From positions 1-44,445 of the forward strand of contig NZ_FXTO01000028.1 of assembly GCF_900182725.1 (NCBI RefSeq): DNA of 44,445 bases, in the 5' to 3' direction. Positions 7,413 to 10,025 of the stretch are shown here, piece by piece. The position numbers and the translations under genes are program-made. The notes beneath the pieces are model-generated. The model did not search any database and was not told where the DNA came from. It saw only the letters and a list, made by a program, of their open reading frames with translations. This stretch comes from Thalassovita litoralis (GTDB lineage: Bacteria; Pseudomonadota; Alphaproteobacteria; Rhodobacterales; Rhodobacteraceae). Every line of letters starts with the position of its first letter. Positions within the stretch are counted from its first letter, which is position 1.

Positions 7413-7420
7413 AAAAGAAA
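7413..7420. repeat. Left copy of 8-bp target-site duplication
   Basis: AAAAGAAA directly abuts the left inverted repeat. The identical octamer at 9716-9723 abuts the right one. An 8-bp duplication is the length reported for IS1595-family transposition. Confidence 0.93.
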
Positions 7421-7444
7421 GGCGATTGTATATTTGACAAACCA
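7421..7444 (+). repeat. Left terminal inverted repeat (IRL)
   Basis: Starts GGCGATTGTATATTTGACAA and continues ACCA. All 24 bases are identical to the inverted right end at 9692-9715; the two ends diverge at the 25th base. Confidence 0.95.
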
Positions 7445-7483
7445 GTTTTCCCGAGCGATCACGCAACAGCGTGACAGGCCGGA

Positions 7484-7627
7484 TCAGTCGCTGGACGCTT
7501 TGTCGTCCTTCGGCTTCTGTTTCACCAGCTTCCTAAGCTTCTCGTTGAACCGTGCTTCGTCGTCATCCGTCCCGAGTTCGCGGGCGGCTTCCTTGAAGCG
7601 GTCAAGTTGGGTTTTGTCTTTTTCCAT
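7484..7627 (-). CDS. Small charged passenger protein
   Basis: 47 residues, MEKDKTQLDRFKEAARELGTD onward, highly charged and predicted helical (FKEAARELGTDDDEARFNEKLRKLVKQKP). It resembles short proteins of unknown function common in alphaproteobacterial genomes and phages, with an Asp/Glu-rich turn between two amphipathic helices. I start at ATG 7627; the frame stays open upstream to 7675 but that stretch looks untranslated. It lies 40 bp inside the left inverted repeat, divergent from the tRNA gene. A small CACGC/GCGTG hairpin follows at 7460-7473. Function unknown. Confidence 0.6.
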   Translation of the reverse strand: MEKDKTQLDRFKEAARELGTDDDEARFNEKLRKLVKQKPKDDKASSD

Positions 7628-7823
7628 AACCACATCATAGTGATTCGGCCCGGCGGGAACCACACGGCACAACACTCTTTGCGTGTTAATCTAACGCAAT
7701 TTGCAAAATCTAGTATAATCAAATAGTTACAATGATCCATTGGGATAAACGCAGTTTGACGTTGACTCCCAGCCCCTTGATGCCACACGATATTGCGCAA
7801 GCGGGGCTTCCTCGCACAACATA

Positions 7824-7909
7824 GGCCCCGTGGCGGAATGGTAGACGCAACCGTCTTTTAAACGGACACCGTGCAAGGTTTGTGGGTTCGAATCCCACCG
7901 GGGCCACCA
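7824..7909 (+). tRNA. Transposon-borne class II tRNA, Leu-like body, anticodon reads UUU
   Basis: 86 nt including an encoded CCA (7907-7909). The acceptor stem GGCCCCG/CGGGGCC has seven perfect pairs, the D-arm is GCG-GAATGGTAGA-CGC, the T-arm GTGGG-TTCGAAT-CCCAC is perfect, and the 15-nt variable arm CACCGTGCAAGGTTT makes it class II. Discriminator A73 and the D-loop fit Leu rather than Ser. The anticodon arm is ACCGT-CTTTTAA-ACGGA (A27-A43 unpaired, four good pairs). By standard numbering positions 34-36 are TTT, a Lys anticodon. Sliding the loop by two bases gives TAA (Leu) but with a poorer stem. It may be a tRNA-Leu(UAA) derivative altered in the loop. No U-rich terminator follows; a protein gene starts 16 nt downstream. 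Confidence 0.85.
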
Positions 7910-7925
7910 CATCACGGAGGCCGCT

Positions 7926-8321
7926 ATGTCGAAAGCGCCAAAAATGAAAGATATGCGGGAACGCTTGGATAGCATCAGGCGAGAGATAGAGAAGCTGCAA
8001 GCCCAAGAGTCGCTTTTGCTTGATATGATGGGTGAAGAACCCACGAAAACCACCCCCAAGAGAGCGCCCAAGGGTTCTGTAAAAGTGCGAGTCCTTGAGA
8101 TGCTAGAGTCAGAAGGCCGAAGCGGGCTGAACGCTGCAAAGGCAGTTGAATTAAGCGGAGCCGAAGGTGACGCACTGGACAGGGGTTCGGTGTCCAGCCT
8201 CCTATCGCGCCTCAAACAAGACGACGTGGTTGTCTATGATGGGAGCAACTACCGTCTCAAAAAATACGCGGGGATGCCTAGCGTTACCCCCCTGAGAACC
8301 TCGGGTGATCGTCAATTCTGA
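7926..8321 (+). CDS. Passenger protein: coiled coil plus winged-helix-like domain
   Basis: 131 residues. Residues 1-40 form a charged coiled-coil-like helix (MRERLDSIRREIEKLQAQES), 41-57 a Lys/Pro/Thr linker (EEPTKTTPKRAPKG), and about 58-120 a small all-alpha domain ending in a probable wing (GSVSSLLSRLKQDDVVVYDGSNYRLKKY), as in winged helix-turn-helix DNA-binding proteins. GGAGG at 7916-7920 precedes ATG 7926 by 5 nt and lies only 7 nt behind the tRNA CCA, so the two are very likely co-transcribed. Similar proteins are known to me only as hypothetical. It could regulate the element or act with the tRNA; neither is shown. Confidence 0.75.
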   Translation: MSKAPKMKDMRERLDSIRREIEKLQAQESLLLDMMGEEPTKTTPKRAPKGSVKVRVLEMLESEGRSGLNAAKAVELSGAEGDALDRGSVSSLLSRLKQDDVVVYDGSNYRLKKYAGMPSVTPLRTSGDRQF

Positions 8322-8409
8322 CGTTTGCTCAGAAGGCCCGCCCCCCCAGAGTTATGCCGTAGGAAGCATTCTAGGGGAGCGGCTCACGTCCTACAGGAAA
8401 GGACTTCCC

Positions 8410-8526
8410 ATGGACAATCGTAATGACGACAAGAAGGTCGTCTATCGGCCCTATATCACGACCAAAGACGGTCGTCGCATATGGGCCAAATGGTATGGCA
8501 AGAGAGCGTTCCGTATCGAACTTTGA
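8410..8526 (+). CDS. 38-residue basic passenger protein
   Basis: The protein begins MDNRNDDKKVVYRPYITTKD and ends in YGKRAFRIEL, a basic and aromatic-rich composition. It starts at ATG 8410 with a strong AGGAAAGGA at 8396-8404. It is too short for confident family assignment, but short proteins with a YRPYITTKDG core followed by a lysine-rich YGK motif occur in alphaproteobacterial prophages and islands, as I recall. It lies 88 bp after the helix-turn-helix gene, same strand, and ends just before an intrinsic terminator, so it is probably the last gene of the tRNA-led transcript. Confidence 0.6.
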   Translation: MDNRNDDKKVVYRPYITTKDGRRIWAKWYGKRAFRIEL

Positions 8527-8541
8527 CTCGCCTTAATCTCT

Positions 8542-8569
8542 GAGGGAGCAGGAAACTGCTCCCTCTTTT
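8542..8569 (+). terminator. Rho-independent terminator of the passenger operon
   Basis: GAGGGAGCAG (8542-8551), loop GAAA, CTGCTCCCTC (8556-8565), then TTTT. A perfect 10-bp stem with a GNRA tetraloop, 15 bp after the stop of the 38-codon gene. Confidence 0.93.
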
Positions 8570-8573
8570 CGTT

Positions 8574-8622
8574 GGTGACGCAACCGGCGAACCGGCACCG
8601 TGCAAGGTTTTTTGCCACCACA
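8574..8622 (+). pseudogene. Decayed second copy of the transposon tRNA
   Basis: Same orientation as the tRNA at 7824. GGTGACGCAACCG matches the tRNA from its D-loop into the anticodon stem with one base missing. Next, GCGA replaces the anticodon loop, and CACCGTGCAAGGTTT reproduces the whole variable arm exactly. The T-arm is deleted, and GCCACCACA restores the tRNA 3' end and flank. It cannot fold as a tRNA. It indicates a past duplication or a recombination scar. Confidence 0.75.
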
Positions 8623-8697
8623 CTTCTAATATGGTCACTTTTCAGGTGCGGTGAAGCTTTTGCTGACGCACCCGCAATGCTTTGAATCGTTTTCGAT

Positions 8698-9648
8698 CTA
8701 TTGCGCGTAGGTCAACCGCTTCCCGGCAGCACCTTTCAAAGCAATCTCGCCACGTTCTGTGTCGTTAACCCCGTTTGCGGTGCGGTTGTTATAACGGAAG
8801 TCAAACTCCGCCGCATAGCGATGCAGATGCTGCTTGCCGCAGTGCTGATAGACACCCTTCATGCCGCGCTTGAAGATACTGTAGAAGCCTTCGACGGTAT
8901 TTGTGTGGACCTCGCCGCGCACGTATTCGCCTTGACCGTGACGGGTGAAGTCATGACCCGCAAACTCGTCGCCAAGGCGCTTATACTGGCCTGCCTCGTC
9001 GGTGTAGACTACGGCTTCCTTGGCGATGTTTTCGCGCAGGATCGGCACCAGCGTAGCGGCTTTCAGATCATCAACGATGATGCTCTTGGCGCGGCCCGTG
9101 GTGCGATCCACCAGCGTCAGCATTTTGTGCTTGTGGGCGAAGCCACGGCCCTTCTTCTCGCCATGCGGCTTGATGGTGCGGTCATTGCCGATGAAGGTTT
9201 CATCGACCTCTACAGCGCCGCCGTTGCCGCCCATGGGTGCGAACTCGCCGGAACGCATGCACTCGCGGATGCGATGGGTCAGGAACCATGCGGATTTATA
9301 GGTGATGCCCAGAACGCGGTGCAGCTGGTGGCTGGAAATGCCCTTCTTGCTGGATACCATCAGGTGAATGGCTTGAAGCCACAGGGTAAGCGGCAGATGG
9401 CTTTCCTCGAAGATGGTGCCCTTGCGAACGGTGAACTGCTTGCGGCACTCACGGCACTTCCACAGGCCGTGGCGCTCCTTTCCTTCCGGGTTCTTCGCGC
9501 TCGGCTTGGTGCGAACGCCAGTCAGGCGATAGGCGCTATCCACAACGCCGCAATGCGGGCATACCGGACCATCCGCCCAGAGCATGCCTTCGACGTGCGC
9601 GAACGCTGCGGCTTCGTCGTGGAAGTAGGGGGCGGAAAGAACGGACAT
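8698..9648 (-). CDS. IS1595-family transposase (zinc ribbon plus ISXO2-like DDE domain)
   Basis: 316 residues. The N-terminal zinc ribbon has two CxxC pairs: CPHC at about residues 29-32 and CREC at about 65-68. A helical linker (LTLWLQAIHLMVSSKKGISSHQLHRVLGITYKSAWF) follows, then the ISXO2-type catalytic domain. Visible acidic and motif residues are VEVDETFIG (first Asp), VVYTDEAGQY (second Asp), and HTNTVEGFYSIFKRGMKGVYQHC with the third acidic residue, then the terminal RYNNR. Length and order are normal and the gene has no frameshift, so it should be active. It starts at ATG 9648 with TAGGAG 6 nt upstream. Its promoter begins inside the right inverted repeat. Confidence 0.95.
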   Translation of the reverse strand: MSVLSAPYFHDEAAAFAHVEGMLWADGPVCPHCGVVDSAYRLTGVRTKPSAKNPEGKERHGLWKCRECRKQFTVRKGTIFEESHLPLTLWLQAIHLMVSSKKGISSHQLHRVLGITYKSAWFLTHRIRECMRSGEFAPMGGNGGAVEVDETFIGNDRTIKPHGEKKGRGFAHKHKMLTLVDRTTGRAKSIIVDDLKAATLVPILRENIAKEAVVYTDEAGQYKRLGDEFAGHDFTRHGQGEYVRGEVHTNTVEGFYSIFKRGMKGVYQHCGKQHLHRYAAEFDFRYNNRTANGVNDTERGEIALKGAAGKRLTYAQ

Positions 9649-9673
9649 TCGAAACTCCTATCGTCTTGATAAG

Positions 9674-9702
9674 AATATAGGGTTTCAGGCTTGGTTTGTC
9701 AA
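9674..9702 (-). promoter_or_regulatory. Transposase promoter with -35 inside the inverted repeat
   Basis: On the minus strand, TTGACA (complement of 9697-9702) lies within the right inverted repeat and TATATT (complement of 9674-9679) lies 17 bp away. Both hexamers are close to or at consensus. The left repeat carries the same TTGACA but has no matching -10. Confidence 0.75.
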
Positions 9703-9715
9703 ATATACAATCGCC
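9692..9715 (-). repeat. Right terminal inverted repeat (IRR)
   Basis: Exact reverse complement of 7421-7444 over 24 bases. It also supplies the -35 hexamer of the transposase promoter. Confidence 0.95.
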
Positions 9716-9723
9716 AAAAGAAA
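9716..9723. repeat. Right copy of 8-bp target-site duplication
   Basis: AAAAGAAA, identical to 7413-7420. Joining 7420 to 9724 recreates an uninterrupted intergenic sequence running into a CCCCACATGTGGG hairpin. Confidence 0.93.
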
Positions 9724-10025
9724 AGCCCCACATGTGGGTTTACCCAAAGCCATCCAGAATTGGCAGAAACGCAGCATGACCAAACTCCACTCATCCGAAA
9801 ACAAATCGTGGACTTTTCTCGTTTCAGGTTCATCGCGGTCAGGAACAAAGACCACTAGGCCAATGTGACAAACCACGCCTTGCTTTGAGGCGTCGCAAAT
9901 CTGCGGGGCGATCCGGTCCTGCCGCCCCCGCAAACAGGACCGTTTCATACCTATTGCAAAATGCTACGTCAGTTATTTTCGCAAACGCATGAGGGGGCAA
10001 AACAACACGCTTGCCCCCAGCAGGC
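9724..10025. other. Non-coding gap after the transposon
   Basis: No credible gene seen. A short palindrome CCCACATGTGGG follows the target duplication. GGGGGCAA (9993-10000) pairs with TTGCCCCC (10011-10018) immediately behind the stop of the SPOR-domain gene and is probably its terminator, although no T-run follows the stem. Confidence 0.45.

Follow-up and report, generated by a model that had tools for sequence, protein, structure and literature searches.

Transposons of the IS1595 family that carry passenger genes are known, as is an RNA-only toxin that acts on tRNA function: in CreTA modules, CreT works by sequestering a tRNA, and CRISPR effectors keep it silent. Here we analyse an IS1595-family transposon in Thalassovita litoralis (Rhodobacteraceae), located at positions 7421-9715 (2295 bp) of contig NZ_FXTO01000028.1 and recognised by its terminal repeats, target duplication and transposase. 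The whole stretch analysed, 44,445 nt long, is referred to as the window. Like other passenger transposons of its family, the element has a zinc-ribbon DDE transposase, an 8-bp duplication and terminal repeats with accessory genes between the ends; it differs from them in carrying a tRNA operon together with an antisense-type copy of parts of that tRNA. Among the matches listed in the open-access literature, no IS1595 element with a tRNA and no tRNA with such an antisense partner is described.

Several described systems resemble parts of this locus, as far as the accessible portions of the reports cited here describe them. The nematode V-arm tRNAs (nev-tRNAs) share with it a leucine-type class II body and a foreign anticodon, and are charged with leucine in vitro (PMC4300185). 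They are, however, non-mobile nematode genes, for which the accessible part of that report mentions no antisense partner or companion protein (PMC4300185). A yeast tRNASer given a proline anticodon likewise places a foreign anticodon on a body whose synthetase ignores the anticodon; it is mistranslating and toxic, and its level must be modulated, but it is a laboratory construct (PMC6827378). In type I toxin-antitoxin systems a toxic product is held by an antisense RNA, as may also be the case here; the toxin there is a small hydrophobic protein, whereas the effector here would be a tRNA (PMC6563280).

The module comprises the following features.

7824..7909, plus strand: class II leucine-type tRNA, anticodon UUU (7857-7859), CCA encoded; from ARAGORN, Rfam and alignment
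7926..8321, plus strand: 131-residue protein, an open reading frame (ORF) starting 16 nt past the tRNA and lying directly behind it in 25 of 35 loci
8411..8526, plus strand: 38-residue ORF (YRPYITTKDGRRIWAKWYGKRAFRIEL), with homologues in 9 of the 26 loci searched
8542..8565, plus strand: intrinsic terminator of the tRNA operon, its hairpin also lying where the minus-strand RNA would be expected to have its 3' end
8543..8622, minus strand: candidate antisense RNA made up of complements of tRNA pieces, with predicted RNA ends
8577-8585, minus strand: complement of the D-arm piece, part of the candidate antisense RNA
8584-8595, minus strand: UUCG hairpin in place of the anticodon arm, part of the same RNA
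8597-8611, minus strand: complement of the variable arm, part of the same RNA
8614-8622, minus strand: complement of the 3' end and CCA, part of the same RNA
8628..8655, minus strand: weak promoter-like boxes TTCACC-16-CATATT for the candidate antisense RNA, found by eye, with 8/12 matches

The tRNA is labelled tRNA-Lys(ttt) by ARAGORN and scores 58.9 bits against the Rfam tRNA model over 7824-7909. The intact class II tRNA of the initial annotation is confirmed in this respect, but the mismatch between its leucine-type body and its non-leucine anticodon had been overlooked. Despite the lysine label, the molecule has a long variable arm and a leucine-type D arm. Leucine identity resides in A73, A15-U48, G18G19 and A20a in E. 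coli and in U8-A14 in A. aeolicus (accessible part of PMC9976931); the window tRNA has these nucleotides, with UUU in place of a leucine anticodon. A73, U8, A14, A15, U48, G18, G19 and A20a are invariant in all 24 tRNAs of the identity alignment, which covers 24 of the 26 module tRNAs and includes that of the window. For fourteen of the 24 the sole route of discovery was a pattern already requiring the D-loop letters, and several such letters are common to most tRNAs; the unbiased evidence therefore consists of A73 and U48, which were free in the pattern-found tRNAs, and of ten protein-found sequences. The class I body of a tRNA-Lys is not present, the variable arm being long and the identity to the host tRNA-Lys 69%. 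The window anticodon UUU is not that of a nonsense suppressor; the UUA anticodon of relatives is. Among the predicted tRNA pairs, 17 of 22 show compensatory change. Besides this tRNA the host has 40 distinct ones, among them tRNA-Lys(UUU) and five for leucine, and a host decoding need for the element's tRNA is rejected on these grounds. Automatic labels, such as tRNA-Lys here, can mask chimeric tRNAs.

Relatives of the locus, designated by L-numbers, were sought with the 131-residue protein as bait. A search of 394 genomes of the family gave four matches including the window, which indicates that the module is rare; the other three have a tRNA of this type in which the anticodon is UUA, matching the UAA stop codon. 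Together with seven viral and seven further places, 18 distinct loci were reached through the protein alone, and 13 of these have a leucine-type tRNA in the stretch. None of the 13 tRNA-bearing loci has a leucine anticodon: UUA occurs in six, UGG in two, UCC in two, and UUU, ACC and UGC in one each, the UGC locus having two tandem tRNA copies behind the ORF. A pattern scan that admitted only UUA and UUU gave 66 genome and 15 viral stretches, of which ARAGORN called tRNA-Stop(tta) in 27 and 6 respectively; the other 39 genome stretches were set aside as mostly group I intron-bearing tRNA-Leu, or chance, by reading. Adding L039 and the window gives a set of 35 loci, two of which, L066 and L113, look like one place. 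The protein ORF lies directly 3' of the tRNA in 25 of the 35, and an IS1595 transposase or fragment is also in the stretch in 19 of these 25. It lies upstream in one, the decayed locus L053. A pattern for non-leucine anticodons found six of 295 family genomes, namely the window, the three known UUA loci, and L137 and L140; the last two were read as intron-bearing and set aside. No further loci came from searching again with a second alignment, plasmid and phage collections gave no tblastn match to the window protein or the L102 protein, and the genome of L054 has no relative of the protein.

The initial annotation had read a tRNA remnant downstream of the operon. This description does not hold, since the region ∼8577-8622 repeats, in conserved form, pieces of the locus's own tRNA, and its opposite strand looks functional. 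The copy is found after the operon terminator and before the transposase, its pieces in the order D-arm piece, variable arm, and 3' end or trailer. In 26 of 26 loci the locus's own variable arm is repeated in the 3' region, with exact runs of 8-15 nt that reach at least 10 nt in 25, although not all 26 are independent: one variable arm is common to the window, L049 and L061, and another to L076, L091 and L093. Non-cognate pairs share 5-7 nt in 569 of 638 cases, longer runs presumably arising from similar arms, and shuffled controls mostly share 5-7 nt and at most 10. The D-arm piece reaches at least 6 nt in 22 of the 26 loci, as the 3' piece reaches at least 7 nt in 22. The copy in L125 is still found after the terminator, ∼1.5 kb from the tRNA and behind an extra gene.

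Thirteen loci have a short hairpin in place of the anticodon arm, and in all 13 the minus-strand form is the more stable, which leads us to propose a candidate antisense RNA. The minus-strand advantage in the window is 0.3 kcal/mol. The loop of the minus-strand hairpin is UUCG or UGCG in 9 of the 13 and GAAA in L069, and in L066 and L121 pairs that are mismatched on the plus strand become G-U pairs on the minus strand. The calculated dimer gain is -27.8 kcal/mol with the locus's own tRNA, which was taken with 21 nt of trailer, and -10.1 kcal/mol with the best-scoring among 40 host tRNAs. In free duplex energy the own tRNA exceeds the mean non-cognate tRNA in 26 of 26 loci. Against shuffles, the boxes at 8628..8655 give a p value of 0.41; of the 8 sphingomonad-type loci counted, 7 have a minus-strand TTGACG box, picked by eye, against an expectation of 0.24. 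For the complementary antisense RNA that is typical of type I toxin-antitoxin systems, the locus offers a candidate, put forward from complementarity, hairpin and energy results, all taken from sequence.

A class I tRNA-like sequence is seen between the operon terminator and the tRNA copy in L043, L074, L076, L091, L093, L102, L112, L126 and L128. Its acceptor and T stems are intact, its anticodon arm is disrupted in most, and two wobble pairs fit the plus strand.

The element that carries the module is delimited as follows.

7413..7420, no strand: left target-site duplication AAAAGAAA, read in the sequence and recovered by script
7421..7444, plus strand: left terminal inverted repeat, 24 bp, from repeat comparison
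7484..7627, minus strand: 47-residue backbone ORF of this IS1595 clade, from tblastn relatives
8698..9648, minus strand: intact IS1595-family DDE transposase, 316 residues, from the ORF and Pfam profiles
9692..9715, minus strand: right terminal inverted repeat, 24 bp, from repeat comparison
9716..9723, no strand: right target-site duplication AAAAGAAA, read in the sequence and recovered by script

The borders and the transposase agree with the initial annotation, which had claimed perfect 24-bp inverted repeats, an exact 8-bp target duplication and an intact transposase. The repeats at 7421-7444 and 9692-9715 are 100% complementary over 24 nt, AAAAGAAA stands at both 7413-7420 and 9716-9723, and the 316-residue product of 8698-9648 matches DDE_Tnp_IS1595 (PF12762, E 4.7e-35) and, at its N-terminus, Zn_ribbon_IS1595 (PF12760, E 1e-13). 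An ISXO2/IS1595-type DDE transposase with a zinc ribbon, terminal repeats and an 8-bp duplication are the characters of the IS1595 family. One copy of the element is present in the 4.1 Mb host genome. The tRNA cannot be taken as an integration target, a reading that we reject because the element is bounded by IS1595 repeats and an 8-bp duplication.

Comparison among loci shows that the tRNA is mobilised with its neighbours. IS1595-type ends (17-22 of 22 matches) with 8-bp duplications enclose the tRNA, the ORF and the tRNA copy in 11 of the 26 loci tested, the window included, and 10 different duplication sequences occur among the 11; several other stretches are too short to include both ends, and a weak end pair in L123 (14 of 22) was treated as chance. 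We conclude from the 11 loci and their 10 duplications that the set has moved as a unit several times, in both Rhodobacterales and sphingomonads. An IS1595 transposon with tRNA cargo, as proposed in the initial annotation, is thereby supported. The tRNA is a frequent cargo but not an obligatory one, in that L004 and L005 are elements of the clade without a tRNA. Both this and the module's occurrence in stretches with no detected IS1595 transposase go some way towards what the initial annotation had named as grounds against the tRNA as standard cargo, but they leave its interpretation standing. Relatives of the 47-residue left-end ORF are present in 20 of 26 loci searched by tblastn, including the tRNA-less L004 and L005, which identifies this ORF as backbone and the tRNA module as cargo. 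No IS1595 transposase was detected in 7 of the 11 stretches checked (L069, L123, L124 and L125 include at least 4 kb downstream of the tRNA), and in L043 and L074 the module lies beside more distant IS1595 transposases. The empty site that the initial annotation had proposed to look for was not found in 20 relatives searched by the right flank only. An 18-nt stretch at 9863-9880, ∼150 bp outside the element, has 89% complementarity to 9687-9704, a segment overlapping with the right terminal repeat.

The architecture shown by this comparison, a leucine-type tRNA with a foreign anticodon, a self-matching copy, a conserved ORF and repeated transposition, suggests a function. That the transposon mobilises a regulated mistranslator-tRNA module, restrained by antisense RNA and resembling a toxin-antitoxin or defence system, seems to us an evenly balanced proposition. 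A more specific form of it, which we put forward tentatively and at somewhat short of an even chance, is that the toxin is the tRNA itself, which would accept leucine and, with its foreign anticodon for a sense or stop codon, poison translation. A self-specific antisense RNA would neutralise it and, by way of the variable arm, spare the host tRNAs, the whole forming a mobile toxin-antitoxin or anti-phage module of a new kind. Leucyl-tRNA synthetase would charge the module tRNA with leucine, because leucine identity in E. coli lies in A73 and the D/T-loop core and not in the anticodon; synthetases that do not read the anticodon are described as letting such tRNAs mistranslate (accessible parts of PMC11415595 and PMC6827378). 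Leucine would then be inserted at lysine codons by the window tRNA, and UAA stops would be read through by its UUA relatives. The minus-strand RNA is predicted to pair with the D arm, the variable arm and the 3'-CCA end of the tRNA, the anticodon and T arms staying as hairpins, and such pairing with the nascent or mature tRNA could block its folding, 3' processing or charging. The 131-residue protein is probably a transcription regulator. Were the element lost, or host transcription shut off, as a phage might do, a labile antisense RNA would drop, the stable tRNA would be freed, and mistranslation would halt growth. In its action the module would then resemble type I toxin-antitoxin or abortive-infection systems, a tRNA taking the part of the toxin. 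The expression, charging and toxicity of the tRNA module, and with them leucylation, mistranslation or read-through, antisense silencing, release on antisense decay and a benefit to element or host, are what we infer from this architecture.

If this proposal is correct, bacteria own mobile devices that switch codon meaning on demand, and engineered mistranslating and suppressor tRNAs have natural counterparts on transposons. The effector would represent a new kind of toxin, one acting as a tRNA, and the antisense RNA would single out one tRNA among some forty host tRNAs by its variable arm.

A number of observations weigh against such a module. In five of the 18 protein-found loci, all weak matches (E 1e-8 to 1e-14), the stretch lacks a tRNA, and 9 of the 35 loci have a leucine-type UUA or UUU tRNA with no neighbour of this protein family. 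By overall identity the host tRNA closest to that of the window is tRNA-Arg(CCU), at 73%, with tRNA-Leu(CAG) at 70%. The copy in L063 is one base off its own variable arm, with a run of 8, and the best non-cognate duplex is stronger than the own duplex in many loci. A sigma-70 scan upstream of the antisense copies did not rise above shuffles (mean 7.92 against 7.51 of 12), a scan of the whole element gave no promoter-like site for the tRNA operon or the antisense RNA, and the ninth sphingomonad-type locus, L101, is without the TTGACG box, which brings the overall count to 7 of 9. Nematode tRNAs of this kind, moreover, gave no detectable mistranslation in vivo, according to the accessible part of the report (PMC4300185).

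Other explanations of the module were also considered. The distance from the tRNA 3' end to the ATG of the ORF is 15-30 nt in 22 of 22 loci read, and in sphingomonad-type loci the copy's 3' piece falls within the trailer, close to the ribosome-binding site. Both features would suit a regulatory leader, in which the tRNA would only help to process or stabilise the operon at its 5' end, the mRNA of the protein would be the target of antisense control, and the anticodon would be irrelevant. An irrelevant anticodon predicts, however, that leucine anticodons should persist, and 0 of the 13 protein-found tRNA-bearing loci have one; the copy also includes D-arm and variable-arm pieces from within the tRNA. 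We consider such a leader unlikely. We are also doubtful that the tRNA is an adaptive decoding tool, a low-level suppressor or missense tRNA benefiting host or element, whether by reading through some gene or by adaptive mistranslation, and tuned by the antisense RNA and the protein. Such a role would account for the recurrence of UUA across several orders, in a scan that admitted only UUA and UUU, and 3 of 22 downstream ORFs end in TAA. The anticodons, on the other hand, read unrelated codons (UAA, Lys, Pro, Gly and Ala), which makes one common target gene unlikely, and only one of the 21 aligned transposases, which include fragments, has an in-frame stop, a TAA in the decayed L053. Read-through of the transposase by an ochre suppressor was rejected on the same count.

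The few members of the protein family with weak helix-turn-helix profile matches might suggest that the copy is a DNA binding site for the downstream protein, with no RNA gene. The copied letters include variable-arm loops that differ among loci and track the locus's own tRNA, and both the hairpin energies and the G-U pairs in L066 and L121 point instead to a minus-strand RNA; a DNA site is thus highly improbable. We give almost no credence to decay, by which the tRNA would be a passive passenger and the copy a relic. The window has UUU where its nearest relatives have UUA, and its D loop is one base shorter than that of L037, as decay might produce, but D loops of the same length occur among UUA members, 17 of 22 pairs show compensatory changes, and the copy tracks its own tRNA in 26 of 26 loci. 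The restrained mistranslator tRNA remains our preferred explanation.

The three small protein genes and the terminator of the initial annotation are likewise present, the former as the ORFs 7484-7627 (minus strand), 7926-8321 (plus) and 8411-8526 (plus), the latter as the intrinsic terminator at 8542-8565. As to the small, usually hydrophobic toxic protein of type I toxin-antitoxin modules, all three products are charged by reading, in an ORF listing that was systematic from 40 residues upwards. The 131-residue protein of the window has no significant match in Pfam (best E 0.085), PADLOC, NCBIfam or PHROGs, and the best match of its profile in the PDB has an E value of 0.13. Within its family, weak helix-turn-helix profile matches are found to DUF5817_CT (5 of 17 members), MarR_2 (one) and HTH_Crp_2 (one). 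By reading, the first third of the protein appears to form a coiled coil; the remainder, from reading and these weak matches, appears to be a winged helix, in which the motif SSLLSRLKxDG occurs. An extra ORF between the protein ORF and the terminator of L125 resembles, by eye, a RhuM-type protein.

Further leucine-type tRNAs, many with a long variable arm, were seen on viral contigs (L141-L213, among the matches listed), with non-leucine anticodons such as Gly GCC/ACC, Ser GCU/AGA, Asn GUU, Ala CGC/UGC, Arg UCU and amber CUA. No relative of the protein was detected near them, except in L148 and L149, which repeat L123 and L124. L051, L067 and L109 have leucine-type UUA tRNAs without a full encoded CCA or the protein downstream, and with other neighbours. 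Acinetobacter and Kluyvera contigs, some of them plasmids (L064, L070, L077, L082, L086 and L090), have a tRNA-Leu with a group I intron that is, by eye, nearly identical to alphaproteobacterial ones in the same list and may reflect recent transfer.

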